This document shows positions 2,164 to 63,575 of a stretch of 64,000 nucleotides of DNA, one piece after another (positions within the stretch are counted from its first letter, which is position 1; each line of letters opens with the position of its first letter). Under the pieces are notes generated by a model that had not been told where the DNA came from, searched no databases, and worked only from the letters and a program-made list of their open reading frames with translations. The DNA is from Rufibacter sp. LB8 (GTDB taxonomy: Bacteria > Bacteroidota > Bacteroidia > Cytophagales > Hymenobacteraceae). The stretch spans positions 1,550,001 through 1,614,000 of the forward strand of contig NZ_JADALJ010000001.1 in NCBI RefSeq assembly GCF_014876185.1, read 5' to 3'. The position numbers and the translations under genes are program-made.

Positions 2164-2205
2164 CCTGTTTTAGGCCTCATTTCTGGAAATGAGGCCTAAA
2201 ACAGG
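2164..2205. repeat. Repeat A copy, GGCCTC variant
   Basis: Near-perfect 42-nt palindrome upstream of the histidine kinase. Arms CCTGTTTTAGGCCTCATTT and its complement; the centre is CTGG. Both arms carry the GGCCTC variant, so this copy kept or regained symmetry. Confidence 0.9.
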
Positions 2206-2550: not shown

Positions 2551-2602
2551 AAAAAAAGGCGTTTTCGGGCTCATTTCTGAAAATGAGCCCGAAAACGCCT
2601 TT
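2551..2602 (-). terminator. Repeat A copy acting as paaN terminator
   Basis: Perfect palindrome 2555-2602 (22-bp stem, loop CTGA) lying 22 nt past the paaN stop. Read on the minus strand it is followed by seven T (A-run 2551-2557 on the plus strand), the form of an intrinsic terminator. It is a canonical repeat A copy with AAAGGC/GCCTTT flanks extending the stem. Confidence 0.75.
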
Positions 2603-7342: not shown

Positions 7343-7396
7343 TTCCCGTTTTCGGGCTCATTTCCAGAAATGAGCCCGAAAACGGGAAGTTTTTTT
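7343..7396 (+). terminator. Repeat A copy acting as subtilase terminator
   Basis: Perfect palindrome 7343-7388 (loop CCAG) 20 nt past the stop codon, followed after one G by seven T (7390-7396). This is a textbook intrinsic terminator built from a canonical repeat A. Confidence 0.85.
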
Positions 7397-7521: not shown

Positions 7522-7567
7522 TTTCTGTTTTTGGGCTCATTTCTGGAAACGAAGCCAAAAACAGAAA
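7522..7567. repeat. Repeat A copy with unlike arms
   Basis: Left arm GTTTTTGGGCTCATTT, right arm AAACGAAGCCAAAAAC: one arm of each sequence type, so the inner stem has several mismatches while the outer TTTCTG/CAGAAA pairs perfectly. Confidence 0.85.
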
Positions 7568-11353: not shown

Positions 11354-11399
11354 AAACGGAAGCGGCGCAGTTCTTTTGAGAGCTGCGCCGCTTCCGTTT
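11354..11399 (+). terminator. Terminator after TlpA-like gene
   Basis: Perfect 17-bp stem with arms AAACGGAAGCGGCGCAG and its complement and an 12-nt loop, 18 nt past the stop. The descending arm runs directly into the first bases of the next repeat A copy (CCGTTTT shared). Confidence 0.75.
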
Positions 11400-11433
11400 T
11401 GGGGCTCATTTTCAGAAATGAGCCCCAAAACGG
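11394..11433. repeat. Repeat A copy (GGGGCTC type)
   Basis: Symmetric palindrome, arms CCGTTTTGGGGCTCATTT and complement. It shares its first six bases with the hairpin before it and lies just past the 3' end of the minus-strand SRPBCC gene. Confidence 0.9.
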
Positions 11434-11954: not shown

Positions 11955-12002
11955 GCTTCCGTTTTCGGCCTCATTTTCAGAAATGAGCCCGAAAACGGAA
12001 GC
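11955..12002. repeat. Repeat A copy
   Basis: Palindrome with one arm mismatch (GGCCTC opposite GAGCCC), outer stem extended to GCTTCC/GGAAGC. It sits between the SRPBCC start and the FkbM stop. Confidence 0.9.
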
Positions 12003-12860: not shown

Positions 12861-12896
12861 GTTTTTGGCCTCATTTTCAGAAATGAGCCCGAAAAC
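12861..12896. repeat. Repeat A copy
   Basis: Left arm GTTTTTGGCCTCATTTT, right arm AAATGAGCCCGAAAAC; two mismatches. Located directly after the stop of the polyprenyl synthase gene and upstream of fkbM. Confidence 0.85.
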
Positions 12897-14842: not shown

Positions 14843-15330
14843 TGGAAACCTTGATCTTACTTTTAGGCGGCAACCTGGGCGACCGACTTTTCTATCTGCA
14901 GGAAGCCGAATCCCGTTTATCGGCTCTGTTTGGGAAACCGAGCCAAAAATCAAAGGTCTATGAAACCGCCGCCTGGGGCCTCACCGAACAACCGTCTTTT
15001 TACAACCAAGCCCTGGCGTATGAAACCGCTCTTCCCGCGCTGGAAATTCTAGCCCACACGCAGCAGATTGAACTCGACCTGGGCCGGATCAGAAAAGAGC
15101 GCTGGGGTGCCCGCATGATTGACATTGACATTTTGTTTCTGGGCCAGCAAATTTTGAACACGCCAGAACTGCAACTCCCCCACCCGCAACTGCACCTTCG
15201 CCGGTTTGCCTTGGTTCCTTTGGCAGAAATCTTGCTTCACTGGCAGCATCCGGTGTTGGAGAAAAGTGTTCAGGAATTATTGGCCCGGTGCCCAGATTCT
15301 TTAGAGGTGAAAATGTTGGAAGAACAGTAA
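14842..15330 (+). CDS. folK: 6-hydroxymethyl-7,8-dihydropterin pyrophosphokinase
   Basis: 162 aa. It transfers pyrophosphate from ATP to the hydroxymethyl-dihydropterin in folate synthesis. Signatures: LLLGGNLGDR at the N-terminus, ETAAWG, FYNQALAYET, and the RWGARMIDIDILF metal/ATP signature. Overlaps the hydrolase stop by 1 nt. The codons at 14914-14951, encoding a variable part between the first helix and ETAAWG, closely resemble repeat A in its third reading frame (see findings). Length is normal for HPPK. Confidence 0.93.
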   Translation: METLILLLGGNLGDRLFYLQEAESRLSALFGKPSQKSKVYETAAWGLTEQPSFYNQALAYETALPALEILAHTQQIELDLGRIRKERWGARMIDIDILFLGQQILNTPELQLPHPQLHLRRFALVPLAEILLHWQHPVLEKSVQELLARCPDSLEVKMLEEQ

Positions 15331-15342: not shown

Positions 15343-15380
15343 CGTTTTCGGCTTCATTTTTAGAAATGAGCCCGAAAACG
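15343..15380. repeat. Repeat A copy downstream of folK
   Basis: Left arm CGTTTTCGGCTTCATTTTT, right arm AAATGAGCCCGAAAACG, 12 nt after the folK stop. Slightly asymmetric. Confidence 0.88.
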
Positions 15381-15400
15381 GAAAACCCGAATAGAGGTTT

Positions 15401-15530
15401 GTACGGACATGTCGCGACCTGTCCTGAACGGTGGCCGAAGCTAAAAAGTCAGCTATGAATTAAGAACGCAGCCTTTACTCAAAATGCCTAGACCAGGAAT
15501 GCGTCAGGATAGCTCGCGACCTGCCCCTAC
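15401..15530. repeat. Degenerate copy of bipartite repeat B
   Basis: Left arm GTACGGACATGTCGCGACCT at 15401 and a right part with GGAATGCGT and GCGACCTGCCCCTAC ending at 15530. It resembles the two better copies at 46137-46267 and 63328-63457 in length (about 130 bp) and in the CGACCTGTCC core, but here the two arms are direct rather than inverted. It ends on the stop codon of the gene at 15527. Confidence 0.55.
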
Positions 15531-17524: not shown

Positions 17525-17572
17525 ATTTCCGTTTTAGGGCTCGTTTCTGGAAATGAGCCCCAAAACGGAAAT
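17525..17572. repeat. Repeat A copy
   Basis: 48-nt palindrome with TTTCC/GGAAA ends, left arm GTTTTAGGGCTCGTTT, right arm AAATGAGCCCCAAAAC; two mismatches. Between the fabD stop and the start of the CapD-like gene. Confidence 0.9.
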
Positions 17573-18524: not shown

Positions 18525-18538
18525 AGTGAAGTTGTTTT

Positions 18539-18578
18539 GCGTTTTCGGCCTCATTTCTGAAAACGAGGCCAAAAACGC
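18539..18578. repeat. Repeat A copy in the fabD 5' region
   Basis: Left arm GCGTTTTCGGCCTCATTT, right arm AAACGAGGCCAAAAACGC; 15 nt upstream of the fabD ATG and therefore probably transcribed in the fabD leader. Confidence 0.88.
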
Positions 18579-18614
18579 ACCTCTGAAACAGACCGGTGGC
18601 AAAGGTATAAAAAA

Positions 18615-18644
18615 GGCGCCCATTCCTGATACGGAATGGGCGCC
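18615..18644 (-). terminator. Terminator of the T9SS cargo gene
   Basis: Perfect 12-bp stem GGCGCCCATTCC/complement, 6-nt loop, followed on the minus strand by TTTTTT (A-run 18609-18614). It lies 24 nt after the stop of the 909-aa gene. Confidence 0.85.
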
Positions 18645-18668
18645 AAACTTATGACTTGTATAGCATGG

Positions 18669-24349: not shown

Positions 24350-24350
24350 C

Positions 24351-24427
24351 AATTAAGAATTAGGAATGGAGAATTAAGAATTGCTATGCTGCAATCGTTC
24401 TCCATTCCTAATTCCAAATTCTTAATT
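24351..24427. repeat. AT-rich foldback repeat D inside the sdh operon
   Basis: Left arm AATTAAGAATTAGGAATGGA (24351-24370) pairs with TCCATTCCTAATTCCAAATT and CTTAATT (24401-24427) with a short bulge, around a loop of about 24 nt. The same AATTAGGAATTAAGAATT words recur at 63138-63170 and 63601-63635. It fills nearly the whole 93-nt sdhA-sdhB gap. Confidence 0.8.
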
Positions 24428-24442
24428 CTAAATTAGAAAAAG

Positions 24443-25924: not shown

Positions 25925-25968
25925 TTCCGTTTTCGGGCTCTGTTTTGGAAATGAGGCCTAAAACAAGG
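25925..25968. repeat. Repeat A copy, diverged
   Basis: Left arm TTCCGTTTTCGGGCTCTGTT, right arm GGAAATGAGGCCTAAAACAA; 5 nt after the FMN reductase stop. Symmetry partly lost. Confidence 0.75.
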
Positions 25969-26069: not shown

Positions 26070-26088
26070 CAAGCATTTCTGCATACCT

Positions 26089-26118
26089 GCCGCAAGTTTA
26101 AAGCAGCGTAACTTGTGG
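26089..26118. repeat. Solo arm of the 60.9-kb foldback element
   Basis: GCCGCAAGTTTAAAGCAGCG then TAACTTGTGG, nearly identical to the inner arms of the compound element at 60881-60910 and 60969-60999. No partner arm is present here. Confidence 0.7.
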
Positions 26119-26196: not shown

Positions 26197-26241
26197 AAAA
26201 AAAAATGAGCCCCAAAACAGAATCTGTTTTGGGGCTCGTTT
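26197..26241 (-). terminator. ftsZ terminator made from inside-out repeat A arms
   Basis: AAATGAGCCCCAAAACAG (right arm of a remnant copy) faces CTGTTTTGGGGCTCGTTT (left arm of the next copy) across the loop AAT, 23 nt past the ftsZ stop. On the minus strand the hairpin is followed by nine T (A-run 26197-26205). Arm order is reversed relative to all other copies. Confidence 0.8.
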
Positions 26242-26263
26242 GTAAAATAGAGGTCAAAAACGA

Positions 26264-29120: not shown

Positions 29121-29882
29121 CTATTCACAAATAATCTGATCCTTGTATTCCACGTTCAGGCGGCTGTATTTCTCCCAGCCTACCACCGGCAGCACTTCTT
29201 TGTAGAAGACAAACAGTTTCCTGAACTTCTCCTGCACCTGCACCGGTTTCCCGAACTCAATTCGCTGGTCGCCCACCTGGGTCAAAAAACTCACGCTGCC
29301 CTTGCCGTCAATGTGCATGTGGGCCAGCTGCGCGTTCCAGAACTCGTCTTTTTCAATAAACTTCAACAACTCCAGATAGGGCAAACCCACCGAGTCTTGA
29401 AAGAAGGAGCCGGCGGGCTTTTTCAAGACCAATGAGGAGGTCACCGGCAGCACGTGGGCCGTGTACAGAGAAGAGAGGGGCAATTGGTTGCCTTCTTCAT
29501 CTAGATACGCGTCTTTTTCAGTGCTTAGCAAGCGGGCAATGGGCCTGTTTTGCCGTATTGTGACGTTGATGTTCCCTGCCAAATCCCGGGAGACCTCGGC
29601 TTCTTTCACAAATTTATGCGATTTAATCCGCATTTCCAGTCCCTTGAGGTCAATCTCTCCCTTTTTCATTCCGGTGAGTGGTTGCTTCCCATTTCTGGTG
29701 AGCAAGGCCATCACTTCTGAATCACTAAGAAAGTAATTGTTATACTCATTATCAATTTTAATATTGACTTTTTCGCATATTTTTTCGGCCTGCCGGGTAC
29801 CTGAAAACCCAGCCAGAAAAACAAAGCTCGCGGCGCAAAAAACTACGAAAAGCAGGGCTTTTACCTTCCTATTCCAATACAT
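29121..29882 (-). CDS. ftsQ: Cell division protein FtsQ
   Basis: 253 aa. A single N-terminal membrane segment (ALLFVVFCAASFVFLAGF) is followed by a periplasmic domain with a POTRA-like start (VKEAEVSRDLAGNINVTIRQ) and a conserved YLDEEG. It links early and late divisome proteins. Start overlaps the end of murC by 14 nt; identified mainly by motif pattern and position between murC and ftsA. Confidence 0.88.
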   Translation of the reverse strand: MYWNRKVKALLFVVFCAASFVFLAGFSGTRQAEKICEKVNIKIDNEYNNYFLSDSEVMALLTRNGKQPLTGMKKGEIDLKGLEMRIKSHKFVKEAEVSRDLAGNINVTIRQNRPIARLLSTEKDAYLDEEGNQLPLSSLYTAHVLPVTSSLVLKKPAGSFFQDSVGLPYLELLKFIEKDEFWNAQLAHMHIDGKGSVSFLTQVGDQRIEFGKPVQVQEKFRKLFVFYKEVLPVVGWEKYSRLNVEYKDQIICE

Positions 29883-31278
29883 GGTTCTGCTCCTCCATAA
29901 ATGCTTTTATCTCAGGAACAAGCGTGTCAATGTCTCCTGCCCCCACCGTGGCCAACACGGCAAAATCCAACTCTTTTGCTAACGCAGCTAGCACTTCTTC
30001 TTTTTTTAGCAAACGCTTGTTTGCCAAGGGTAACTTGTCAAACAGCAGCTTGGCATTCACGCCTTCAATGGGCAACTCACGGGCTGGGTAAATATCCAGC
30101 AGCCAGACCTCATCTGCCAAACTCAAACTGGTGGCAAAGCCTTCTAAAAAATCACGGGTACGGGTAAACAAATGCGGCTGAAAGACAACACGAAGCTTTT
30201 TCTTTGGATACAGCGCCCTCACGGAAGTCAAAAAAGCCTCAATCTCACGCGGATGGTGCGCATAATCATCTAAATATACCCTTTTTCCGTCAGTCCACAC
30301 CTTTTCAAACCGCCTTTTTACGCCCGTATAAACCGCAAGTCCGTTAGCAATTTCCTGGGCACTCACACCCGCCAGTGACACGGCCTGCACCGCGGCCAGG
30401 GCATTCTCTACATTATGGAAACCGGGTACCTGCAAAGCGGTCTCTGGGAGTTGGAAGTTCCAGCCTTGGGCAAAAAATTTCATACTTCCATCGGCTATTT
30501 TTATCTCGCCTGCCGCTAGCTCCTCACCTTCAAGACCATACCTGATAATCTTCACGGAAGGGTGAACGGCCTCTGCTATGCTCTGGTCAGCAGTATGGTT
30601 CAAGATCAGAAAACCATTGGGTTTAATCTGGCTCACAAACTGCCGGAATGACTCTACTAAGGCCTCCTTTTCGCCATAGATGTCCAGGTGGTCTGGGTCT
30701 GTGGAGGTGACAATGGCAATGTCTGGGTGCAAGGTCAGGAACGAACGGTCATATTCATCGGCTTCCACCACGGCCAGGGCCCGGTCTTCGTCTTTGGCTG
30801 GCAGCAACAAATTAGAACCCAAATCTGTGGAAATGCCACCCAGAAACGCCGACGTGGAGACACCTGCGTGGTGCAACAAATGCGCCACCATGGTAGAGGT
30901 AGTGGTTTTACCATGCGTGCCCGCCACCGCAATCAAATACTGGTCAGCGGTGAGCAAGCCCAACACCTGCGAGCGCTTCATGATGGTAAAACCTTGTTGC
31001 TCTAAATATTGCCGCTGTGTGTGGGTTTTGGGAACGGCGGGCGTCAATACCACCAGCGTTTTTGCCTTCATTTCCAGAAATGAGCCCGGAATCAGGTTTA
31101 CGTCATCTTCGAAATGAATCTGGGCACCTTCTTCCTGCAATTTCTGGGTGAGCGGCGTAGGCGTCTTGTCATAACCCGCCACGGCAAAGCCTTTGGCCAG
31201 AAACCAGCGGGCGATGGCGCTCATGCCAATGCCGCCAATGCCTAAAAAGTAGATATTCTCAAATTGCCGCAGGTTCAT
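29869..31278 (-). CDS. murC: UDP-N-acetylmuramate--L-alanine ligase
   Basis: 469 aa. N-terminal FLGIGGIGMSAIARWF, ATP loop VAGTHGKTTTSTMV, central VVEADEYDRSFLTLHPD and YAHHPREIEAFL identify MurC, which adds the first peptide residue (L-Ala) to UDP-MurNAc. Overlaps murG by 4 nt and ftsQ by 14 nt. The segment encoded by 31056-31092 (IPGSFLEMKAKTLVV) is clear repeat A sequence in frame; the surrounding conserved residues (LVVLTPAVP) are intact, so the enzyme should still work. Confidence 0.96.
   Translation of the reverse strand: MNLRQFENIYFLGIGGIGMSAIARWFLAKGFAVAGYDKTPTPLTQKLQEEGAQIHFEDDVNLIPGSFLEMKAKTLVVLTPAVPKTHTQRQYLEQQGFTIMKRSQVLGLLTADQYLIAVAGTHGKTTTSTMVAHLLHHAGVSTSAFLGGISTDLGSNLLLPAKDEDRALAVVEADEYDRSFLTLHPDIAIVTSTDPDHLDIYGEKEALVESFRQFVSQIKPNGFLILNHTADQSIAEAVHPSVKIIRYGLEGEELAAGEIKIADGSMKFFAQGWNFQLPETALQVPGFHNVENALAAVQAVSLAGVSAQEIANGLAVYTGVKRRFEKVWTDGKRVYLDDYAHHPREIEAFLTSVRALYPKKKLRVVFQPHLFTRTRDFLEGFATSLSLADEVWLLDIYPARELPIEGVNAKLLFDKLPLANKRLLKKEEVLAALAKELDFAVLATVGAGDIDTLVPEIKAFMEEQNHVLE
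31056..31092 (-). repeat. Repeat A sequence inside murC
   Basis: Plus-strand text GCGTTTTTGCCTTCATTTC, loop, AGAAATGAGCCCGGA. The left arm and right arm both match intergenic copies with a few changes. It is translated as GSFLEMKAKT in the TCA-TTT-NNN-GAA-ATG frame. Confidence 0.8.
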
Positions 31279-32378
31279 TTTATTAGTTTAAAAAGTTCCT
31301 GCACAATGGTTTCGGTGGCGAAAGGCCGCGCCAGCAACGCGATGTTGCGGCTCAACTCTGCTTGTTTTTCTTTATTTTGGGCTAAAGCGAAAGCGCTGCT
31401 CCACAATTTGTCTGCTTCTGCGTCTTTCACCAATACGGCCGCTTCTTTATTTACCAAAGCCATGGCGTTTTTGGTTTGATGGTCCTCCGCCACGTTAGGC
31501 GAAGGCACCAGAATAGACGGCTTCTGCGCCAGACACAGTTCTGAAATTGACAAAGCCCCCGCACGGGAAATCACCACATCTGCCGCCGCGTAGGCCAAAT
31601 CCATGCGTTTGATGAAGTCAGAAGCCTTGATTTGGTCTGTAGGAAAATGCTGCACCGTCGCTTCTGCCGTGGAGATAAACGTCTTGCCCGTTTGCCAAAT
31701 CAAGTTGTAGCCTTTCTGCTGGATTTCTGCCAGGGCAGCCTCTGTGGCTTGGTTCAAGGTGCGGGCGCCCAAACTTCCGCCTATTACCAGAAATGTAGTT
31801 CTGGCAGGGTTCAACTCGAAGTAAGCCATGGCTTCTTCGCGTTTCCCCTTTAGTTCAGTAATGTCACGGCGTACGGGATTGCCGGTGTGAATCAGTTTTT
31901 CCTTCGGGAAGTACTTCTCCATGCCGTCATAGGCCACACAAATCTTTTCTACCTTGTTAGCCAACAACTTATTGGTGATACCGGCGTGCCCGTTCTGTTC
32001 CTGAATCAAGGAAGGAATTCCCATTTTGGTAGCCGCATACAACAACGGACCGCTGGCGTAACCGCCCACGCCTACCACCGCATCGGGTTTAAAGTCTTTG
32101 ATGATTTTATACGCTTTCCGGACGCTGGAAATGACTTTTAGCGGAAAAGAAAGATTGTCTAAAGTCAGTCTTCGTTGCAAACCACTAATCCAGAGACCAA
32201 TGATTTTATAGCCTGCTTCGGGCACACGTGTCATTTCCATGCGGCCTTCGGCGCCCACAAACAGAATTTCAGCCGTTGGGTGCAACCGCTTAATCTCATT
32301 GGCGATGGCCACCGCCGGATAGATGTGCCCGCCGGTGCCGCCCCCACTAATAATGAATCTGTAGGTTTTCTCAGGCAT
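31275..32378 (-). CDS. murG: UDP-GlcNAc:lipid I N-acetylglucosaminyltransferase
   Basis: 367 aa, GT28 family. Donor/acceptor motifs ISGGGTGGHIYPAVAIA, GVGGYASGPLLYAA, QEQNGHAGITNK, VIGGSLGART and SRAGALSISELCLAQKPSILVPSP. Makes lipid II at the cytoplasmic face of the inner membrane. Four-nt overlap with murC, 8-nt overlap with ftsW. Confidence 0.96.
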   Translation of the reverse strand: MPEKTYRFIISGGGTGGHIYPAVAIANEIKRLHPTAEILFVGAEGRMEMTRVPEAGYKIIGLWISGLQRRLTLDNLSFPLKVISSVRKAYKIIKDFKPDAVVGVGGYASGPLLYAATKMGIPSLIQEQNGHAGITNKLLANKVEKICVAYDGMEKYFPKEKLIHTGNPVRRDITELKGKREEAMAYFELNPARTTFLVIGGSLGARTLNQATEAALAEIQQKGYNLIWQTGKTFISTAEATVQHFPTDQIKASDFIKRMDLAYAAADVVISRAGALSISELCLAQKPSILVPSPNVAEDHQTKNAMALVNKEAAVLVKDAEADKLWSSAFALAQNKEKQAELSRNIALLARPFATETIVQELFKLIK

Positions 32379-33534
32379 GGCTCAAGGCTGGTTTGTTCAC
32401 GGCCCCAATTGCCTGCTGGCGCGCCTCATATTCGCTTCGGCTCACACTCAGGATAATGCCAATGGAAATACCGGTGAAAATAAGCGAGGTTCCGCCCATA
32501 CTCAATAGCGGCAACGGCAAACCGGTAATCGGACCCAAGCCCACGGCCACGCCCATGTTCACCATTGCCTGAATGACAAGACTAAAACTCAGGCCCGCCG
32601 ACAGCAATCCCCCGAAGGCGCCCAAACTGTTGGTCACCGCCACCATGCCGCGGTAGAGAAAGGCCAGGTAGAGCATCAACACGGTGGCCCCTCCTATTAA
32701 CCCGTATTCCTCAATAATGATGGCGTAAATAAAGTCTGAATACGGGTGCGGCAACACATTGCGTTGGTCTGAATTACCCGGCCCTTTGCCCACAATTCCG
32801 CCCGTGGCAATGGCGATGTAGGATTGCTCCAGTTGGAAAACAGTTTCCTCAGAATCAAGGAAATTCTCAATCCTGGAGATAGCCGTCTGCATCCGCTGCC
32901 CTATGGTCAAAGCAATGGTCCCGAAGATGGCCCCGACTATAATCATGGTGAAAATGGGTTTCATGGGCACCCGTCCGATGAACATCAGCAGAATACAGGT
33001 CATGAAAAGCAAAAAGCCCGTGGAGATATTACTCATGGCAATCAAGCCGCAAATCAAGCCACTCCAGAGAAACAACGGAATCAAGGTTTGTTTGTGCGCG
33101 ATGTTCATCTGGCGCTTGCTCAGTATGCTGGCCAAATAAGAAATCAAGGCCAGCTTGGCCAAATCTGAGGGCTGAAACGTCTGGTTGATGATGGGAATAG
33201 TGAGCCAGCGCGACGCCTCGTTAATGTTAGAGCCTTTCAAATAAGTGTAAATCAGCAAGGGTACCGAAAACATTAGCGCCACTTGGCTCATCTTGGCGTA
33301 ATAGCGGTAGTTGACTTTATGCGCCAGCCACACAAAGGCCAAACCAATGAAAATCAGTGCCGAGTGCTTGAACAGGTAATATTCCGTGTTCCCCGACATC
33401 ATTTTGTAGGCGAGCGTGCCCGTGGCCGAGTACACCACCGCAATACTGATCAACCCGAAAGTGAGCACAATACCCCACAGAATAGGGTCGCCTTTAAGGT
33501 TCTCGCGGAGCCAATCTTTCGCTGCTGTCATCAT
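32371..33534 (-). CDS. ftsW: Lipid II polymerase FtsW (SEDS family)
   Basis: 387 aa with about ten membrane segments. SEDS signatures include the region RWLTIPIINQTFQPSDLAKLAL (split: RWLTIP, then FQPSDLAKL), IIEEYGLIGG and the C-terminal GLPLPLLSMGGTSLIF. Polymerises septal glycan together with FtsI encoded in the same cluster. Overlapping starts ATGATG (33534/33531) coincide with the murD stop. Confidence 0.93.
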   Translation of the reverse strand: MMTAAKDWLRENLKGDPILWGIVLTFGLISIAVVYSATGTLAYKMMSGNTEYYLFKHSALIFIGLAFVWLAHKVNYRYYAKMSQVALMFSVPLLIYTYLKGSNINEASRWLTIPIINQTFQPSDLAKLALISYLASILSKRQMNIAHKQTLIPLFLWSGLICGLIAMSNISTGFLLFMTCILLMFIGRVPMKPIFTMIIVGAIFGTIALTIGQRMQTAISRIENFLDSEETVFQLEQSYIAIATGGIVGKGPGNSDQRNVLPHPYSDFIYAIIIEEYGLIGGATVLMLYLAFLYRGMVAVTNSLGAFGGLLSAGLSFSLVIQAMVNMGVAVGLGPITGLPLPLLSMGGTSLIFTGISIGIILSVSRSEYEARQQAIGAVNKPALSHA

Positions 33535-34883
33535 ACCCGAGTGTTTTTTAGCGCGGCCACTGCTTCTGCAAACGCGCGGCCCCGGTGTTCATAATTGTTG
33601 AATAAATCAAAACTTGCGCAAGCCGGCGAGAGCAACACCACATCGCCTTTCTCAGCGAAATCAAAAGCTAGCTTTACTGCCTCCTTCACATCCTGCGTTT
33701 CTACCGTTTTCGGGCTCATTTCTGAAAATGAAGCCAAAATCTTGCTGTTATCTAGGCCCAGGCAGACAATGGCTTTCACTTTGTCCTGCACCAAAGGCAG
33801 CAGCGTGGAATAATCATTGCCTTTGTCTTTGCCGCCCACTACCCACACAATAGGTTCTTTGATGCCGTCCAGCGCGTACCAAACGGCTTCCACATTGGTG
33901 GCTTTGGAATCATTGATAAAGCGCACGCCGTCAATCTCGCCTACCGGCTGTAATCTATGCTCCGCGTTCTGGAAAGTGGCAAGTGCGGTTTCTATTTGCT
34001 CTGGTGAAATACCGACCAGCAAGGCGCCGCCCACGGCAGCCATGGTATTGTATTGGTTGTGCTGGCCAATCAAATTAGAACCCGTTGTGTCCAGTTTTGT
34101 CTTCATTTCACAAACAGAGGCCAAAATCGACTTCTCTTCAAAATTGATGGCTAATGTTTCTGACTCTTTCAGGCCGAAAGGAACCGGTTTGCCCGGCACC
34201 TGGTGGGTTGCCAGATATTTTTGAATCTCCGCGTCATCCAGGTTGAAGAGGAAGAAATCTTCGGAAGTCATGTTCTGCGTGATTCTAAACTTGGCCGCAG
34301 CATAGCTTTCCATTTGGTAGTTGTAGCGGTCCAGATGGTCTGGCGTGATGTTGAGCAAAATGCTTATGTGCGCCTTGAACGCATACATGTTGTCCAGCTG
34401 AAAACTGCTTAGTTCCACCACGTAGTAGTCGTAACCGCCTTCCAATACTTTGCCGGCCAGACTTTCGCCCACATTACCGGCCAGAGCCACTTTCAAACCC
34501 GCGCTTTTCAGCAGGTGGTAGGTAAGCAGCGTGGTGGTGGTTTTGCCATTGGTACCCGTGATGCAGATGAACTTTCCTCCAGCATACCGCCCCGCGAACT
34601 CAATCTCAGAAATCACCGGAATTCCTTTTTCCAACGCCCCTTGAATCACAGCCACAGAATCTGGAATGCCCGGGCTCTTGATAATTTCCGCAACTGCGTA
34701 GATTTGTTCCAGCGTGTGCGTTCCTTCCTCAAAAGGAATCTTGGCTTGCTGCAACTGGATTTTGTATTTCTCAGAAATTTCGCCTCGGTCAGACACGAAC
34801 ACATCATAACCTTTGGCCTGCGCCAGCAAGGCCGCGCCAACGCCGCTTTCCCCCGCTCCTAGTATGGCTATTTGTTTGTTCAT
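33531..34883 (-). CDS. murD: UDP-N-acetylmuramoylalanine--D-glutamate ligase
   Basis: 450 aa. N-terminal AILGAGESGVGAALLA, ATP loop ITGTNGKTTTTLLT, FINDSKATNVEAVWYALD, VGGKDKGNDY and the C-terminal SPACASFDLFNNYEHRG are diagnostic for MurD. Adds D-Glu to UDP-MurNAc-Ala. Two internal stretches match repeat A in the same reading frame: 33703-33741 (ILASFSEMSPKTVE, an essentially unchanged copy) and 34092-34130 (ILASVCEMKTKL, weaker). Both are in loops between conserved blocks. ATG at 34883. Confidence 0.96.
   Translation of the reverse strand: MNKQIAILGAGESGVGAALLAQAKGYDVFVSDRGEISEKYKIQLQQAKIPFEEGTHTLEQIYAVAEIIKSPGIPDSVAVIQGALEKGIPVISEIEFAGRYAGGKFICITGTNGKTTTTLLTYHLLKSAGLKVALAGNVGESLAGKVLEGGYDYYVVELSSFQLDNMYAFKAHISILLNITPDHLDRYNYQMESYAAAKFRITQNMTSEDFFLFNLDDAEIQKYLATHQVPGKPVPFGLKESETLAINFEEKSILASVCEMKTKLDTTGSNLIGQHNQYNTMAAVGGALLVGISPEQIETALATFQNAEHRLQPVGEIDGVRFINDSKATNVEAVWYALDGIKEPIVWVVGGKDKGNDYSTLLPLVQDKVKAIVCLGLDNSKILASFSEMSPKTVETQDVKEAVKLAFDFAEKGDVVLLSPACASFDLFNNYEHRGRAFAEAVAALKNTRV
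33703..33741 (-). repeat. Repeat A copy inside murD
   Basis: ACCGTTTTCGGGCTCATTT, loop CTGA, AAATGAAGCCAAAATC: as good as many intergenic copies. Translated as ILASFSEMSPKT within an otherwise normal MurD. Confidence 0.9.
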
Positions 34884-34929: not shown

Positions 34930-34975
34930 TTTCCATTTTTGGCTTCATTTCTGAAAATGAGCCCCAAAACGGAAA
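34930..34975. repeat. Repeat A copy between murD and mraY
   Basis: 46-nt imperfect palindrome, ends TTTCC/GGAAA, arms CATTTTTGGCTTCATTT and AAATGAGCCCCAAAACG. The only intergenic repeat inside the dcw operon; it lies 5 nt after the mraY stop and 46 nt before the murD start. Confidence 0.9.
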
Positions 34976-34981: not shown

Positions 34982-36199
34982 CTACCTCAATTTCAAAGTC
35001 ACCAAAGTCAAAATGGCCAGCATGATGCCCACGGTCCAGAAGCGGGTGACAATCTTAGATTCATGGTAACCTAGTTTCTGGTAGTGATGGTGCAGCGGTG
35101 ACATCTTGAAAATTCGTCGGCCTTCGCCGTATTTGCGTTTGGTGTATTTGAAGTAGCTCACCTGAATCATAACCGATAGGTTTTCCACTAAAAAGATGCC
35201 GCAGAGAATTGGGATTAGGAGCTCTTTTCTCAAAATGAGCGCCAAAACGGCAATGATGCCGCCAATGGAAAGGGAACCGGTGTCACCCATGAACACTTGC
35301 GCCGGGTACGAGTTGTACCACAAAAAACCCACGCAGGCGCCCACAAAGGCGGTACAGAAAATCACCAACTCGCCGGTGTTGGGAATGTACATGATGTCAA
35401 AGTAATCGGCGAAGATGGCGTTACCAGACACCCAGGCAAACACCGCCAAGGTAGTACCAATAATAGCTGAAGTCCCAGCGGCTAGGCCGTCAATGCCGTC
35501 GGTGATGTTGGCGCCGTTTGATACGGCCGTGATGATGATAATCACCAACGGGATGTACAGGAAGCGGGCGTAAGAGCCCAAAACGGGACTCGCAAAGCTG
35601 AAGAAATGGTGGTAATCCAGTTCGTTGTTTTTGGTGAACGGCACGGTGGTAATCATCTTGCGAACGTCTTCAAAGGAACCACCCACGTCAATGGCCGAGA
35701 TACCTTTTTCTGTGAGGTATTGGCGTACCACCACGTCTTCGTTGAAAAACAACACCACGCCTACAATCAACCCCAAACCCACCTGCCCAATGATTTTGAA
35801 CTTGCCGGCCAGACCTTCTTTGTTCTTCTTGAAGACTTTAATATAATCATCCAGAAACCCGATGGCGCCCAGCCACAGCGTAGACACCAGCATTAAAATA
35901 ATATAGATATTGCTCAGTCGTGCCAGCAGAAGCGTAGGCAGCACAATGGCCAACAGAATGATTAGACCGCCCATGGTTGGCGTGCCTTTCTTCTCCATCT
36001 GGCCTTCCAGACCCAAGTCTCTGATGGATTCGCCTACTTGTTTGCGATGCAGCATTCTTATCAAGCGTCCGCCGAAAATCATGGCAATCAAGAGAGATAG
36101 CAGCGCCGCCAAGCCAGCCCTGAACGAAATGTATTGGAATACACCCGCGCCCAGCACGTCAAATTCTTGGTCTAAGTATCTAAAAAGGTAATACAGCAT
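34982..36199 (-). CDS. mraY: Phospho-N-acetylmuramoyl-pentapeptide transferase
   Basis: 405 aa, about ten membrane segments. Transfers phospho-MurNAc-pentapeptide to undecaprenyl phosphate (lipid I). Signatures: [59 protein letters not shown] and PLHHHYQ. A hydrophilic insert around residues 165-200 before the HFF segment looks like the family's Bacteroidota version. The codons 35219-35250 (ALILRKELL) look like repeat A although the peptide itself is native to MraY. Confidence 0.96.
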
Positions 36200-36255: not shown

Positions 36256-37722
36256 TTATTTCTGGAGGAGCGCGAAGGCTTCCTGTAGAATCAATTTATC
36301 GTCAAACGGCGACCGCTCGCCTTTCACTTCCTGGTAGGTTTCATGTCCCTTGCCCGCCACCAGAATAATATCATCAGGTTCGGCCAGCATGACGGCGGTT
36401 TTAATGGCTTCGCGGCGGTCAATCACCGAAAGCGCTTTTTTCAAATCCACTTGTTTCACGCCTACCTGCATCTGGTTCAAAATCTCCTGCGGGTCTTCAT
36501 CCCTAGGGTTGTCTGAGGTCAGAATCACGCGGTCGCTTAAACGAGCCGCGATGTCGGCCATGACCGGGCGCTTGGCCGCATCACGGTTGCCGCCGCAGCC
36601 TACCACGGTAATCACCTTCTGTTCTGGTTTCCTGATTTGCTGAATGGTTTGCAGCACGTTCTCCAGCGCGTCTGGCGTGTGGGCGTAATCTACAATGGCC
36701 GTAATCTGGTCCTCGGGCGACACCACATAGTCAAACCGTCCGGCTGCCGATGATAAATCTGATAAGCTGGCCAAAACTTCGGGAGAATCTTCTCCCAGCA
36801 AAATGGCCGCGCCATACACCGCCATTAAATTATAAGCATTGAACGTCCCGATTAACCTGAACCAGACCTCCTGCCCTTCCAGCTCCAGCTGCAAACCCTG
36901 AATGGAATTGTCTATCAGCTTGGCTTTGAAATCGGCTTCCTTGCGCAGCGCGTAGGTGTATTTGCTGGCTTTGGTGTTCTGCAACATAACCATGGCGCGC
37001 TTGTCATCGGAGTTTACCAACGCAAACGCTTTTCTAGAAAGGAAATCGAAGAATAGTTTCTTGGCCTTAATGTACTCGTCAAAGGTGCCGTGGTAATCCA
37101 GGTGGTCATGCGAAATATTGGTAAAAACCGCCCCAGTAAATTCCACCCCGGTCACGCGGTGCTGCACCAGGGCGTGCGAACTCACTTCCATGAAGGCGTG
37201 CGTACAACCAGCTTTCACCATTTGGGCCAGCAAGCCCTGCAACGTGATGGCGTCGGGCGTGGTGTGCGTGGCCGGAATAACGGTTTCATTGATTTGGTTT
37301 TGTACCGTGGAGAGCAAACCGGCATTGTAGCCCAGCTCGCGGTACAGTTTGTGCAGCAAGGTCACGCAGGTGGTTTTGCCGTTGGTGCCGGTGACGCCCA
37401 CCAGCTTAAGTTTTCTAGACGGATAGTCATAAAACGCCGCGGCCATGTGGCCCATGGCCGCGGCGGCGTCTGGCACCACCACCACCGTTACTCCGGCTGG
37501 GGCGTTTTTGGGCTCTGTTTCGCAAATGACCGCCGAAACGCCCTGCGCCATGGCGGCTTCTATGAAATCATGCCCATCGCGGAGCGTGCCTTTGATGGCG
37601 AAAAACGCCACGCCCGGCCCCGCCTGGCGAGAATCCATGGTTAACGCAGAAAGCTCGGGGTTAGAAGGCCCGAGCAATTGCGTTGGCTGGAGGGCCTGCA
37701 GCAGGTTTTGTAGTTGTGCCAT
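36256..37722 (-). CDS. murE: UDP-MurNAc-L-Ala-D-Glu--meso-diaminopimelate ligase
   Basis: 488 aa from ATG 37722 (MAQLQNLLQALQ); three codons upstream is a TTG that I do not prefer. Motifs: VGVTGTNGKTTCVTLLHKLY, HTTPDAITLQGLL, SSHALVQHR, and DNPRDEDPQEIL, the DAP-type (not Lys-type) specificity loop carrying the DNPR sequence. The reading frame overlaps the 3' end of ftsI by 62 nt. Codons 37502-37541 (SAVICETEPKNA) resemble repeat A in its second frame. Confidence 0.95.
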   Translation of the reverse strand: MAQLQNLLQALQPTQLLGPSNPELSALTMDSRQAGPGVAFFAIKGTLRDGHDFIEAAMAQGVSAVICETEPKNAPAGVTVVVVPDAAAAMGHMAAAFYDYPSRKLKLVGVTGTNGKTTCVTLLHKLYRELGYNAGLLSTVQNQINETVIPATHTTPDAITLQGLLAQMVKAGCTHAFMEVSSHALVQHRVTGVEFTGAVFTNISHDHLDYHGTFDEYIKAKKLFFDFLSRKAFALVNSDDKRAMVMLQNTKASKYTYALRKEADFKAKLIDNSIQGLQLELEGQEVWFRLIGTFNAYNLMAVYGAAILLGEDSPEVLASLSDLSSAAGRFDYVVSPEDQITAIVDYAHTPDALENVLQTIQQIRKPEQKVITVVGCGGNRDAAKRPVMADIAARLSDRVILTSDNPRDEDPQEILNQMQVGVKQVDLKKALSVIDRREAIKTAVMLAEPDDIILVAGKGHETYQEVKGERSPFDDKLILQEAFALLQK

Positions 37723-39814
37723 TTTTTCCAAGGGTAAGGGTAATGATTGCGCCTTTCTGAACAGGTTCGCCGGGCGTAAGACTCTGGCTTTGCACTCTGC
37801 CTAGCCCCACAATGCGTACGCGCAGGCCGTGGTTTCCTAAGAGATACAGGGCGTCTTTCAAGGTCATGTCCGTCACGTCGGGCACTTTGCCCATCTTCAC
37901 GGGAACCGGTTTCAAGGCCACCGAGTGTTTTTGCGTGTCTACCCTAATCCAGTCTTCCTCGGGGTTGATGGGGTGGGCGCTGATGCCCAGTTTGTCACAG
38001 AGTAATTTGATTTCCTCCTGGCTTCCGGCGTGGAGCGTGGGCAGTTTAGGCTGAACGCCGGCTGGTTTGCGCGCCATGGGTTTATGGATGGCTAGATCCT
38101 GGGCATAAGCCTTATCTGCCAATTCTCTGAACACCGGCGCGGCCACATCACCGCCGTACTGTGCACCTTTCTGCGGATTGTCAATAATCACAATGCAGCT
38201 GTACTTGGGCTTGTCAGCCGGGAAATACCCCACAAACGAGGTGGAATATTTACGGGTGTACTGGCCGTTTATTACTTTACGGGCAGTACCGGTTTTGCCG
38301 GCCACTTTGTAGTCTTCGCTGCGCACGTTCTTGCCAGTTCCGTTCTCTACCACACCTTCCATCATGGCCCTTAGTTGCGCCAAGGTTTCGTCTGAACAGA
38401 TTTTTGGGTTCAGAACCTTGGTCTCAAACTGTTCCAGCACGTTGTCTGCGCGCTTGATGCTCTTCACAATCATGGGCTGCACTTTCACGCCGTTGTTGGC
38501 CACCGCATTGTAAAAGGCCAAAGTCTGCAGCGGCGAAAGCTTTAATTCATAGCCAATGGCCATGGTGGACAAAGACGGACGGCTCCAGCTGCGGTCTTTC
38601 GGCGATTTGATGTACGGAATGGCCTCGCCGTTCATCTGGAAACCAAGCGGCTGGTGCAACCCGAACTTGTGCAGGTAGTCTACATATTTCTGCGGCTGGC
38701 TTTCAAAGGTTTTCTGAATCAGCTTGGCCACGCCCACGTTAGACGATTTCTCAAACACTTGCTGCAGCGTGATTTTGCCGTAGCCATGCGTGTCTGTTTT
38801 CACTGCGCCGCCAATGCGTTCTGACCCGTAGCCGGTTTCCACGGTGTCGGTGAGTTTCATGTCGGTTTCCTCCAAGAGGGCCATCATAGACGCCAGTTTG
38901 AACGTAGAACCGGGCTCCGTGCGGCCTTGGTTACCCACCGCGTAGTTATAGTCTTCCTCGTAATACCCCGGGCCGGCCTTGCCTAGATTGGCGATTGCTT
39001 TAATCCGGCCGGTGCTTACCTCCATCAGAATCACACAACCGTGAGCGGCGTCATTGATGGTGAGCACGCGGCGCAGCGCACTTTCGGCTACGTCCTGCAG
39101 GTTGATGTCAATGGTGGTTTGAATGTCGAAGCCCGGCATGGGTTTCACCTCGGTTCCGTCATTGATGGGCTTGTTGCCACCGGCCATGCGTTCAAACAGA
39201 GCTTCGCCATCTTTGCCGGCCAAATGGCGGTTAAAGCTAAACTCCAGACCGGCGCCTTTGCGGTCTTCGTTGATGAAGCCAATGGTGCGCTTGGCCAAGG
39301 ACCCGAACGGCAGGAACCGACGGTCAATCTTCTCAAATATCACCCCGCCTTTGTTTTTCCCGGCCCTGAAAATCGGCCATTTGGCCATCAGTTTTTTGTC
39401 CTGGTAATTAATCAGGCGACCGTTGATACGCACGTATTTTCGGTTCTTGGCGCGGGCGCCCTTGATTTTTCGCTTGTAATACTCCGGAGATTGGTCCCCG
39501 AAAAACCGCGACAGCATCATGCCCAAGGAGTCAATGCCTTTGTTGAAGACTTCGTCTTTGGGAATGGATGGGTCAAAGGCCACGCGGTAAAAGGGCAATG
39601 ACGTAGCCATGATACGCTCGTCATCTGAGTAGATGTTGCCGCGCGTGGCGTAAATGGGCTGGTAATGGAACCGCTTCTCGTTGGCAATTTCGCGCCAGCG
39701 GTCCCCGTCCTTGAACTGAATGTAGGCCACCTTGTACATAATGGCGAACGCGAACAGGCAGATAGCCAAAAAGGCCAACCGTACGCGCGTAACGATGGAC
39801 CTCTTAATATTCAT
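37661..39814 (-). CDS. ftsI: Septal transpeptidase (class B PBP) with PASTA domain
   Basis: 717 aa. N-terminal membrane segment (VRLAFLAICLFAFAIMYKVA), PBP dimerisation domain, transpeptidase domain with SxxK (GSTFKLASMMALL), SSNVGVAKL and KTGTARKV, then a single C-terminal PASTA-like domain (VPDVTDMTLKDALYLLGN). Cross-links septal peptidoglycan in complex with FtsW. Start overlaps the ftsL-like gene by 11 nt; the last 62 nt are shared with murE. Confidence 0.95.
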   Translation of the reverse strand: MNIKRSIVTRVRLAFLAICLFAFAIMYKVAYIQFKDGDRWREIANEKRFHYQPIYATRGNIYSDDERIMATSLPFYRVAFDPSIPKDEVFNKGIDSLGMMLSRFFGDQSPEYYKRKIKGARAKNRKYVRINGRLINYQDKKLMAKWPIFRAGKNKGGVIFEKIDRRFLPFGSLAKRTIGFINEDRKGAGLEFSFNRHLAGKDGEALFERMAGGNKPINDGTEVKPMPGFDIQTTIDINLQDVAESALRRVLTINDAAHGCVILMEVSTGRIKAIANLGKAGPGYYEEDYNYAVGNQGRTEPGSTFKLASMMALLEETDMKLTDTVETGYGSERIGGAVKTDTHGYGKITLQQVFEKSSNVGVAKLIQKTFESQPQKYVDYLHKFGLHQPLGFQMNGEAIPYIKSPKDRSWSRPSLSTMAIGYELKLSPLQTLAFYNAVANNGVKVQPMIVKSIKRADNVLEQFETKVLNPKICSDETLAQLRAMMEGVVENGTGKNVRSEDYKVAGKTGTARKVINGQYTRKYSTSFVGYFPADKPKYSCIVIIDNPQKGAQYGGDVAAPVFRELADKAYAQDLAIHKPMARKPAGVQPKLPTLHAGSQEEIKLLCDKLGISAHPINPEEDWIRVDTQKHSVALKPVPVKMGKVPDVTDMTLKDALYLLGNHGLRVRIVGLGRVQSQSLTPGEPVQKGAIITLTLGKNGTTTKPAAGPPANAIARAF

Positions 39815-46085: not shown

Positions 46086-46136
46086 AGGCGTTGATGTATT
46101 TAGAAACCCCTTTGATTGATGTAGAGTATTTTGCAC

Positions 46137-46267
46137 GTAGGGACAGGGCTTGACCTGTCCGCCCACGCATTCCTGATACCAGCAGCCCCGACTACTCTCT
46201 GCTCTAATCCAAAGAAACAACCATGATGTACGGCCACCGCATTGGACAGGTCAAGCCCTGTCCATAC
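46137..46267. repeat. Bipartite inverted repeat B
   Basis: Left arm GTAGGGACAGGGCTTGACCT then GTCCGC; right arm GGACAGGTCAAGCCCTGTCC then ATAC. The arms are inverted copies about 82 bp apart, with GCATTCCTG inside. A second copy of the same length lies at 63328-63457. MITE-like, no coding capacity. Confidence 0.8.
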
Positions 46268-46324
46268 CAGTAGACTCACCTTAAATAATTTGTAAACCAT
46301 CTAAACGCCCTCCTACCCCCCCAG

Positions 46325-46361
46325 CTTTTGGCTTCATTTTCAGAAACGAGGCCAAAAACAG
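46325..46361. repeat. Repeat A copy upstream of TetR gene
   Basis: Arms CTTTTGGCTTCATTTT and AAACGAGGCCAAAAACAG; two-type asymmetric copy. Confidence 0.85.
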
Positions 46362-49292: not shown

Positions 49293-49330
49293 CGTTTTTG
49301 GCTTCGTTTTCAGAAATGAGCCCGAATACG
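49293..49330. repeat. Repeat A copy between ispH and crtW
   Basis: Arms CGTTTTTGGCTTCGTTTT and AAATGAGCCCGAATACG; asymmetric, followed on the plus strand by eight T. Confidence 0.85.
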
Positions 49331-52278: not shown

Positions 52279-53787
52279 TCAGGCGGTTAAGGGTACTGGG
52301 CGCGGCGCAAATTCTTTCACCACTTCTGCGGCCACCACTTGCCCGGAGATTAACGACGGCGGCACGCCCGGGCCGGGCACCGTCAATTGCCCGGTGTAAA
52401 ACAGGTTCTTTACTTTCTTGCTTTTGAGGCTGGGCTTCAAAATAGCCGTTTGCGTGAGCGTGTTGGCCAAGCCGTAAGCATTGCCCTTGAAGGCGTGGTA
52501 ATCTGCGATGAAATCACGGTGCGCATAGCTTCGGTTATAAACCACGTGGGAGCGTACGTCTTGACCCGTGAGCCGCTCCAAACGCTCCATGACCAAGTGG
52601 TAGTAATAGTCACGGGTTTCAGCTTTGTCTTCCAGGTCTGGGGCCACGGGAATCAGCACAAACAGATTTTCCATGCCTTCTGGCGCCACCGTGTCATCTG
52701 TCTTAGACGGCATCGACACGTAGAAAAGCGGTCTTTTAGGCCAGGCCGGATTGGTGTAAATCTCCTGGCCGTGCGGCCCGAAGTCTTCGTCAAAAAACAG
52801 GTTATGGTGCAGCAGGCCGGTCAGTTTCTTATTCACGCCCAAATAGAAAATCAACGAGGACGGGGCCATTACGCGGCTTTGCCAGTATTTCTCAGTATAG
52901 CTTTGTAAGGCAGGCGGCAGAAGCTTGGTCTCAAAATGGTGGTAATCGGCACCGCCAATTACTACATCAGCTGCATATTCGCCTTTGCTGGTAATGACTT
53001 TGGAAATGCTTTCGCCCTCAAACTCCAGGCGCGTGACCTCTTCGCCCAGTTTCATTTCAACGCCTAATTCCTGCGCCAATTTCACCATGCCTTCCACAAT
53101 CTTGTGCATGCCGCCTTTGGGGTACCAGGTGCCTAAACTTAAATCTGCGTAGTTCATAAGGCTGTAAAGCGCCGGCGTGTTCTCTGGCAACGCGCCCAGG
53201 AACAACACCGGGAACTCCATCAACTGAATCAGCTTGGGGTGCCTGAAATACTTGCGCACGTGTTTAGACATGCTCTGAAACACATCCAATCGCAGCACAT
53301 CTACCATCAACTTCACGTTGGCGAACTCCGTCACCGACCGGCTGGGTTTGTACACCAGTTGGTTGATACCCACCTCGTATTTATAAGCGGCCTGTTTCAG
53401 GAATTTACGAAGTTGCAAAGCTACCCCAGGTTCCAGTTCCTCAAACATGGCTTCCAACTCCGCCATTTGGGCCGGAATAGGCAATACATCGCCTTCGCCG
53501 AACAAAACCTGATAAGATGGGTCCAGGCGTACCAAATCATAATAGTCAGACACCTTCTTCCCGAATTTCTGGAAGTAATGCTCAAACACGTCGGGCATCC
53601 AATACCAACTGGGGCCCATGTCAAAGGTGAAGCCTTGGGCGCTGAAAACCCGGGCGCGGCCACCAGCTACCTCGTTTTTCTCCAGGCAAGTCACGGCATA
53701 CCCGGCCTGGGCCAGGCTAGACGCCGCCGAAAGGCCGGCAAAGCCCGCCCCAATCACCACTGCATTTTTCCCGGGAAGTTTGGACAT
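52279..53787 (-). CDS. crtI: Phytoene desaturase (CrtI type)
   Basis: 502 aa from ATG 53787 (MSKLPGKNAVVIGAGFAGL); the upstream extension to 53844 would use TTG. FAD-binding N-terminus VVIGAGFAGLSAASSLAQAG with EKNEVAGGRA; C-terminal GQLTVPGPGVPPSLISGQVV is the CrtI signature. Converts phytoene to lycopene. First structural gene after the sigma factor, 125 bp downstream of it. Confidence 0.95.
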   Translation of the reverse strand: MSKLPGKNAVVIGAGFAGLSAASSLAQAGYAVTCLEKNEVAGGRARVFSAQGFTFDMGPSWYWMPDVFEHYFQKFGKKVSDYYDLVRLDPSYQVLFGEGDVLPIPAQMAELEAMFEELEPGVALQLRKFLKQAAYKYEVGINQLVYKPSRSVTEFANVKLMVDVLRLDVFQSMSKHVRKYFRHPKLIQLMEFPVLFLGALPENTPALYSLMNYADLSLGTWYPKGGMHKIVEGMVKLAQELGVEMKLGEEVTRLEFEGESISKVITSKGEYAADVVIGGADYHHFETKLLPPALQSYTEKYWQSRVMAPSSLIFYLGVNKKLTGLLHHNLFFDEDFGPHGQEIYTNPAWPKRPLFYVSMPSKTDDTVAPEGMENLFVLIPVAPDLEDKAETRDYYYHLVMERLERLTGQDVRSHVVYNRSYAHRDFIADYHAFKGNAYGLANTLTQTAILKPSLKSKKVKNLFYTGQLTVPGPGVPPSLISGQVVAAEVVKEFAPRPVPLTA

Positions 53788-54609: not shown

Positions 54610-54655
54610 TTCCCGTTTTCGGGCTCATTTCTGAAAATGAGCCCGAAAACGGGAA
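54610..54655. repeat. Repeat A copy, perfect
   Basis: 46-nt perfect palindrome, TTCCCGTTTTCGGGCTCATT plus T and complement, loop CTGA. It lies between the MerR stop and the sigma promoter and could terminate merR. Confidence 0.92.
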
Positions 54656-56918: not shown

Positions 56919-56958
56919 GCGTTTTCGGGCTCATGTCTGAAAACGAAGCCAAAAACAG
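56919..56958. repeat. Repeat A copy upstream of mntA
   Basis: Arms GCGTTTTCGGGCTCATGT and AAACGAAGCCAAAAACAG, one arm of each type. Confidence 0.85.
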
Positions 56959-57966: not shown

Positions 57967-58006
57967 CCGTTTTTGGCTCCGTTTTCAGAAATGAACCCGA
58001 AAACGG
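57967..58006. repeat. Repeat A copy at the comEC 3' end
   Basis: Arms CCGTTTTTGGCTCCGTTTT and AAATGAACCCGAAAACGG, 4 nt after the comEC stop codon. Confidence 0.85.
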
Positions 58007-60663: not shown

Positions 60664-60700
60664 CGTTTTCGGGCTCATTTCTGGAAACGAAGCCAAAAAC
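60664..60700. repeat. Repeat A copy
   Basis: Arms GCGTTTTCGGGCTCATTT and AAACGAAGCCAAAAAC, one of each type, 11 nt before the foldback element. Confidence 0.85.
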
Positions 60701-61110: not shown

Positions 61111-61167
61111 AAACAAAAAAGAGCGTTTTCAGGCTCATTTCTGAAAATGAGGCCGAAAACGCTCTTT
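61111..61167 (-). terminator. Repeat A copy acting as phoH terminator
   Basis: Stem AAAGAGCGTTTTCAGGCTCA against TGAGGCCGAAAACGCTCTTT (61118-61167, a few inner mismatches), followed on the minus strand by TTTTTTGTTT. It ends 36 nt after the phoH stop. Confidence 0.8.
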
Positions 61168-63240: not shown

Positions 63241-63327
63241 GTTAGGTTGAGGGCGAGTTTCTAAGCGTTTTGTTTTGATATACGCTTCTTATGCGTTTCT
63301 TAAACCTATGGTGAGAAATACCAACCC

Positions 63328-63537: not shown

Positions 63538-63575
63538 CGTTTTTGGCTTCATTTCCCGAAATGGAGCCAAAAACG
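63538..63575. repeat. Repeat A copy
   Basis: Nearly perfect palindrome of the second arm type: CGTTTTTGGCTTCATTT, loop CCCG, AAATGGAGCCAAAAACG. It shows that the TGGCTTC type also exists in symmetric form. Confidence 0.88.

Follow-up and report, generated by a model that had tools for sequence, protein, structure and literature searches.

A palindromic DNA word restricted to Rufibacter among the genomes searched is written in place into conserved genes

Introduction

We analysed a 64,000-nucleotide stretch of Rufibacter sp. LB8 (contig NZ_JADALJ010000001.1 of assembly GCF_014876185.1, positions 1,550,001 to 1,614,000; hereafter the window), which carries a cell-wall cluster made up of murC, murG, an ftsW-like gene, murD, mraY and murE. 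Copies of a palindromic DNA word are found between genes throughout the window and also inside several of these reading frames. We show that base substitutions have written the word in place in conserved genes, as far as the protein tolerates it and toward a form that is specific to the species. We think it probable that the word is recognised by a putative sequence-specific factor, and that drive or selection writes better matches to it into genes. The core of the word is 36 bp long, GTTTTcGGGCTCATTTC-NN-GAAATGAGCCCgAAAAC in the LB8 genome, and extends to approximately 48 bp once its weaker outer arms are counted.

Results and Discussion

The word is abundant in Rufibacter

We searched 59 genomes, namely 16 Rufibacter (LB8 and 15 sisters, which we number with a G where they must be told apart) and 43 from outside the genus. 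One word is heavily over-represented genome-wide: LB8 has 1416 sites with its exact skeleton and each sister has 51–1120, against none in the genus for a reversed-pattern control. Outside Rufibacter, 37 of the 43 genomes have no such site and six have one. A covariance model (E 1e-4) gave matches in 16/16 Rufibacter genomes and 0/43 others. The word is therefore confined to Rufibacter among the genomes searched. The 48-nt consensus had no match in plasmid and phage collections, and no Rfam family reached its gathering score anywhere in the window. Partial-match searching of the open-access literature found no prior account of a palindromic word in Rufibacter, which does not prove absence.

Copies within coding DNA

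Copies in the window were scored with a position weight matrix (PWM) built from 18 other copies, leaving out those in murC and murD. The best score obtained by chance, from 10 Markov-shuffled windows, was 8.4. At coding sites we also asked how well the actual codons match the word relative to random synonymous codings of the same peptide (recoding z). The genes and coding copies concerned are as follows.

29869..31278, minus strand, murC (TIGR01082)
31058..31093, minus strand, copy in murC, peptide LIPGSFLEMKAKT; PWM 42.1, recoding z 2.9
33531..34883, minus strand, murD (TIGR01087)
33706..33741, minus strand, murD site a, peptide KILASFSEMSPKT, the best-preserved mur copy; PWM 51.4, z 2.9
34093..34128, minus strand, murD site b, peptide SILASVCEMKTKL, weak here and stronger in some sisters; PWM 19.0, z 4.1
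34982..36199, minus strand, mraY (TIGR00445)
35213..35248, minus strand, copy in mraY, 12-residue peptide whose synonymous codons spell the word; PWM 26.4
36256..37731, minus strand, murE (TIGR01085 / NF001126)
37504..37539, minus strand, copy in murE, peptide VSAVICETEPKN; PWM 29.4, z 3.0 in LB8
14915..14950, plus strand, copy in folK (HPPK family); PWM 17.2, above 20 by the genus matrix in 7/11 genomes
53554..53589, minus strand, amine-oxidoreductase (crtI-like) site, word-like in most sisters and not in LB8
58316..58351, minus strand, second site of a comEC-like gene (Pfam Competence); PWM 38.3, present in 4/4 sequences compared

The three copies in murC and murD had been proposed in an earlier reading of the sequence (the original prediction), and their scores of 42.1, 51.4 and 19.0 bear this out; the sites in mraY, murE, folK and comEC are additional to it. 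At murD site b of LB8 (z 4.1) the score equals the synonymous maximum, which is 21.0 by the genus matrix, a matrix that may contain one or two coding copies (comEC). In the comEC-like gene, the LB8 sequence has one extra codon alongside the second site, and a first site near the gene start is clear in three sisters and weak in LB8. Two further genes outside the window, which we take to encode a sensor kinase and an outer-membrane protein, also carry the word; the crtI label is likewise our presumption. Comparisons for folK, crtI and comEC cover genus sequences only.

That the three mur copies are read in the same frame also holds, since all share one codon phase. This is not a rule, because copies elsewhere in coding DNA are found in every one of the three phases: mraY, murE and crtI lie in phase 0, folK, the kinase and comEC in phase 1 and the outer-membrane protein in phase 2 (a run of Ns in the stretch used for this reading was taken as A).

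Substitution rather than insertion

All 20 orthologs compared at the murC site were equal in length, as were all 27 other-genome loci at murD site a (27 of 29 loci could be read). At murD site b, 24 of the 27 were equal, three from other genera were 5–6 residues longer and none was shorter. The mraY and murE sites showed no gap in 20 sequences each, in alignments that drop columns absent from the LB8 gene and in which longer orthologs are hence not visible. Because no aligned ortholog is shorter, the words at murC, murD, murE and mraY arose by substitution and not by insertion, and insertion at the mur sites is rejected for want of any length gain. The replacement of existing codons put forward in the original prediction thus stands. 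Sister species carry the word at the same mur sites, and it is absent from the aligned orthologs outside the genus: these score from -58 to +7 with the LB8 or genus matrix, whereas most members of the genus match the word in the same register to graded degrees.

In the sensor-kinase-like gene the word is present in 16/16 species (scores 13.0–44.6), and eight outgroups are 1–2 residues longer, so there is no insertion there either. The outer-membrane-protein-like gene also has the word in 16/16 species (20.6–46.5); its length comparison is taken up below.

As a separate observation, murD of G007 is split by the ends of its contig C1 and matches in three pieces, reflecting either an assembly flaw or a real break.

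Codon choice follows the word

The null for the recoding test comprised 2684 windows (standard deviation 0.96, 0.07% above 3, maximum 3.65). The clearest case is mraY, where the peptide is identical in 15/15 genus sequences and in two of five outgroups. Here z was 3.8–5.6 in 11 of the 15 and approximately 0 in the other four, compared with -1.1 to 0.7 in the five outgroups; the same 11/15 proportion of genus sequences scored 21–30 against the word, and the outgroups -13 to +4. At murE, z was 2.2–3.8 in 15/15 (three at the maximum) with word scores of 19–38, against 0.3–1.3 and -21 to +7 in five outgroups. For murC, z was 2.5–3.8 in 15/16 species, four of them at the synonymous maximum, and -0.9 in one. 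The values were 2.3–3.6 in 14/16 and 0 in two at murD site a, and 2.1–4.5 in 16/16 at site b, with outgroups at murC and murD between -1.2 and 1.7. Moreover, z was 2.8–5.4 in 10/10 sequences of folK and at least 2.2 in 8/11 of crtI, where LB8 itself gave -1.2. In approximately half of the species-site cases the score lies within 3 bits of the best that synonymous coding could attain.

Controls across larger amounts of coding DNA agree. With the genus matrix, 562 kb of genus coding DNA gave 67 matches above 20 and 20 column-permuted controls gave none each; 68 kb of outgroup genes also gave none. In 464 kb of the LB8 chromosome, 11 coding sites passed and none did in 12 permuted controls. Of 47 block-permuted controls, 46 gave 35 matches in all (at most 14), and the remaining one gave 48 because its matrix is a near-copy of the real one (correlation 0.91). 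When scores were averaged across species, six coding sites formed peaks and six permuted controls gave 0–2 weak peaks each, although three of the nine peaks listed have a mean below 1 and may be chance. The recoding test shows a DNA-level pressure on coding text: the codons in use fit the word far better than random synonymous ones do.

Outgroup orthologs of murC, murD site a and mraY already resemble the word, 13/15 ranking no lower than the 96.5th percentile among outgroup windows. It is as if chance look-alikes had been captured as seeds at these sites, which suits drive or selection and conversion alike.

Dialects of the word vary between species

Enough copies were available to define a form of the word, or dialect, for 11/16 genus genomes; dialects were trained on copies outside called genes, a set that may include some inside genes the caller missed, murE among them. 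The LB8 dialect is CTCATTTC and that of G005 is GTTTAGGGGCT; seven genomes share a GGCCTG dialect, and G002 and G011 have GGGCTG. Both arms change with dialect, a claim that rests on single copies, as the scoring matrices, which combine the two strands, are built to be symmetric. We measured dialect fit as the double-centred score of each species' coding site against its own dialect. At folK, murC and murD site a the fit was higher than in any of the 7519 control windows, and it reached the 0.1% level at mraY and the 0.5% level at murD site b.

The dialect is visible even in the peptides. The residues EM common to the three LB8 mur peptides are explained by the ATG of GAAATG in the LB8 dialect, and ATG is absent from all three positions in 15/15 sisters. 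Furthermore, the kinase and comEC copies deviate exactly where the LB8 dialect, in their phase, would read TGA.

Separately, judged by eye, one RAYT gene is almost the same along most of its sequence in G013 (locus L183) and LB8 (L179), and the G013 gene lies 280 nt from a word copy in the LB8 dialect. This suggests that a block was transferred and kept its dialect.

Genomic placement of intergenic copies

In 464 kb of the LB8 chromosome we counted 172 copies of at least 25 bits. At a threshold of 30 bits there are 168 copies, of which 160 (~95%) are intergenic, six lie inside called genes and two overlap one; the murE copy (25 bits), missed by the gene caller, is one further coding copy. Because the caller skipped murE under its overlap rule, the coding counts (7/172 copies, and the 11 sites above) are lower bounds. 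Where a gene end is adjacent, the median distance from copy to stop codon is 53 nt. Spacers of at least 50 nt hold a copy in 38/48 convergent, 85/178 tandem and 16/55 divergent cases. The central TG/CA has a weak orientation with respect to genes (tandem, 46 opposite and 34 same; convergent, 25 opposite and 13 same). Regular spacing is rejected: the gaps have a coefficient of variation of 1.18, and random placement in intergenic DNA gives 1.34 ± 0.11.

The spacer-free tracts around coding sites are comparatively long (median 3666 versus 1746 nt, p 0.003), a link that is suggestive only, with 4/11 sites coming from the mur cluster that prompted the study. For these sites, neither the spacing of the intergenic copies on either side (p 0.07) nor the distance to the nearest of them (p 0.18) was significant.

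A 30-kb stretch at approximately 1456050–1486200 of this contig (-94 to -64 kb relative to the window) has no copy of at least 25 bits and a reduced G+C content of 0.449; it is possibly a recent island.

How the word is written into genes

The original prediction described an unusual conversion process in which a palindrome overwrites coding DNA. Its same-length replacement holds; a single-block overwrite does not, as the sites are graded, largely synonymous and often at or near the best attainable score. The mur sites are not block replacements but are common to the genus in the same register, with a graded match and codon-level substitutions, and the pattern at coding sites is one of gradual, protein-filtered writing. 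Piecemeal conversion is one candidate driver; drive or selection acting on a recognised word through point substitution fits at least as well.

Under the recognised-word reading, which we favour, a putative sequence-specific DNA-binding or DNA-processing factor would recognise the motif, and its preference, through selection or a recombination drive, would favour better-matching alleles. Chance resemblances in coding DNA could thus be captured and then improved stepwise. Were the preference to shift, intergenic copies and many coding sites would be expected to shift with it.

Several observations weigh against this reading. The recognising factor is still putative. Dialect tracking is negative at crtI (T -0.84), and the fit weakens when LB8 is left out (folK, 4.18 to 3.27; murC, 3.76 to 1.69; murD site a, 4.10 to 1.62; mraY, 2.68 to 1.55; murD site b, 2.12 to 1.23); moreover, the dialect control windows do not contain the word and hence vary less. 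Owing to shared descent the z values of different species are not independent trials, and a single z of 2.5–3.5 is within the null range. The word has been lost at murC in G005, at murD site a in G007 and G013, and at mraY in G001, G005, G008 and G013. Outgroups have no clear seed at murD site b (59.5th–96.9th percentile). At the outer-membrane-protein-like site, five spanning outgroups are 2–7 residues shorter and three do not span it, so that, judged from these alignments, this site may have begun as an insertion. Lastly, 127 of the matches listed share the top score of 59.8–59.9 bits (by score; the sequences were not individually read). This uniformity is more than recognition requires and therefore suggests copying or conversion between genes.

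More broadly, and with less confidence than an even chance would warrant, we propose that a drive at the DNA level may have spread the word through essential genes, one that depends on neither transposition nor pilus-based uptake. Behind it could stand short overwriting events templated by dispersed copies, or a protein that organises the chromosome and needs sites every few kilobases, including within long spacer-free operons.

Templated overwriting taken as a full explanation, in which intergenic donor strands would anneal to genic look-alikes and replace short patches, those that the protein tolerates surviving purifying selection, is in our judgement unlikely, though it deserves serious consideration. 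Besides the uniform top-scoring copies, it would account for change without gain in length and for LB8 murC and murD site a carrying the LB8 dialect on both arms. It also fits the four site differences between murC of LB8 and of G007, of which three are clearly toward the LB8 dialect and none away from it. However, coding matches go no further than the codons permit, and graded states are found in every species. Partial identity over 36 bp is also short for RecA-type exchange.

The closest known analogues are the DNA uptake sequences (DUS) of Neisseria and the uptake signal sequences (USS) of Haemophilus, which are described as evolving by point substitution and having dialects (PMC1939737, PMC3630211). 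Like these, the Rufibacter word is a many-copy genome-wide word with in-place substitution, intragenic copies and dialects. A strict uptake sequence, with transformation preferring word-bearing DNA so that matching alleles build up, would further agree with the presence of a ComEC-like gene and with a sparse second contig (5 copies in 155 kb versus 172 in 464 kb). We nevertheless hold it to be distinctly improbable. A T2SSE/PilB-type ATPase (PF00437), the one pilus gene searched for, was above the family cut-off in 0/15 genus genomes, eight of which had weak matches below it, compared with 2/6 other and 13/14 control genomes above it. DUS and USS are words with a 9–10 bp core, and open reading frames hold 65% and 35% of them in the two classic species (PMC1939737), whereas the Rufibacter word is a 36–48 bp palindrome and mostly intergenic. 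Given the ATPase result and this length, symmetry and placement, we do not class it as an uptake sequence; it behaves like one and belongs to the molecular-drive kind without being a member.

Repetitive extragenic palindromic (REP) elements and bacterial interspersed mosaic elements (BIMEs), associated with RAYT, are likewise many-copy, intergenic and near gene ends. Insertion of a REP-like mobile palindrome into genes, offset by compensating deletions, would suit the distribution of copies among convergent, tandem and divergent spacers, the RAYT-type genes in 15/16 genus genomes, the word within 150 nt of 3/13 RAYT-like genes (L180, L182 and L185) and the possible insertion at the outer-membrane-protein site. 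It is very unlikely all the same, and at the mur sites REP insertion is already disfavoured: murC, both murD sites, murE and mraY gained no length, and the mraY word is all-synonymous. The other 10/13 RAYT-like genes have no word within 150 nt, and by eye the flanks of eight of these show other palindromes; G007, with 592 sites, has no Y1 match at E 0.001. Overall, the evidence from RAYT genes is mixed. The word also lacks the GTAG/CGTC tag of REP/RAYT systems, its consensus ending GTTTT...AAAAC. Intragenic REPs and the Rickettsia palindromic elements (RPE), which resemble our word in being palindromes read inside genes, are described in PMC3733652 as inserts encoding extra residues and as in-frame insertions, respectively, unlike the word at the mur sites.

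That hairpin selection or quasipalindrome correction has perfected inverted repeats is barely credible. The word is a palindrome, and pairing exceeds independence at core position 6 (51% versus 35% in LB8), at a few positions in G006 and at the first six outer positions. Elsewhere in the core, pairing between the arms barely exceeds the prediction for independent columns, as expected for a recognised sequence, and the coding copies fit the family skeleton rather than being better palindromes (in mraY, 7–11 of 18 pairs in word-bearing sisters). With this pairing and no Rfam match, a hairpin or RNA function is rejected. Template switching at inverted repeats, which alters coding DNA in place (PMC8604942), would make the arms alike, whereas the Rufibacter word matches the family consensus instead. 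Chance or codon bias, favoured by nothing beyond short A/T tracts, can be dismissed with near certainty, as the shuffled, permuted, recoding and outgroup-window controls all speak against it.

HIP1 of cyanobacteria is also a highly iterated palindrome of unsettled function, for which a repair-driven origin has been proposed (PMC4390886). It differs in being an 8-mer linked to DNA methyltransferases.

The mraY site provides a natural case of a non-coding constraint that is legible behind an invariant peptide, whose codons spell a 36-bp word. This allows a DNA-level drive to be measured in essential genes, and the dialects open a route to the factor behind the word. The case also carries a warning that DNA words, and not the protein, can set the patterns of codons and residues in genes of this sort.

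Other copies and repeats in the window

The intergenic copies in the window, which are given without strand, are listed with their PWM scores.

2167..2202, intergenic copy, 55.7
2561..2596, intergenic copy, 59.2
7348..7383, intergenic copy, 60.1
7527..7562, intergenic copy, 55.4
11396..11431, intergenic copy, 55.1
11961..11996, intergenic copy, 58.9
12861..12896, intergenic copy touching the start of an open reading frame in the list of such frames, 58.3
15344..15379, intergenic copy, 57.0
17531..17566, intergenic copy, 54.1
18541..18576, copy in the called spacer 18524–18669, 56.6
25929..25964, intergenic copy, 50.6
26226..26261, weaker intergenic copy, 36.6
34935..34970, intergenic copy in the murD/mraY spacer, 51.4
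46324..46359, intergenic copy, 49.3
49294..49329, intergenic copy, 50.1
54615..54650, intergenic copy, 59.2
56921..56956, intergenic copy, 51.8
57969..58004, intergenic copy, 48.4
60665..60700, intergenic copy, 56.2
61125..61160, intergenic copy, 55.4
63539..63574, intergenic copy, 46.5

Weaker matches (8–22 bits) lie at 4535, 25270, 26128, 41918, 42603, 45593 and 48458.

Three other repeat types were seen. A second, sparse repeat of the GTAGGGACAGG...CCTGTCC type (GTAG-REP-like) is found at 15400–15426, 46136–46162, 46243–46270, 63327–63353 and 63432–63459, and a Y1-transposase-like gene in L182 has five copies within and around it. A CCGCAAGTTTA...GTAACTTGTGG palindrome occurs at 26076–26118 and 60868–60910; judged by eye, it flanks a RAYT gene in another part of the genome as well (L180). 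Lastly, AT-rich repeats of the AATTAAGAATTAGGAATT type lie at 7455–7515, 24344–24377, 24404–24438, 63136–63169 and 63603–63637.

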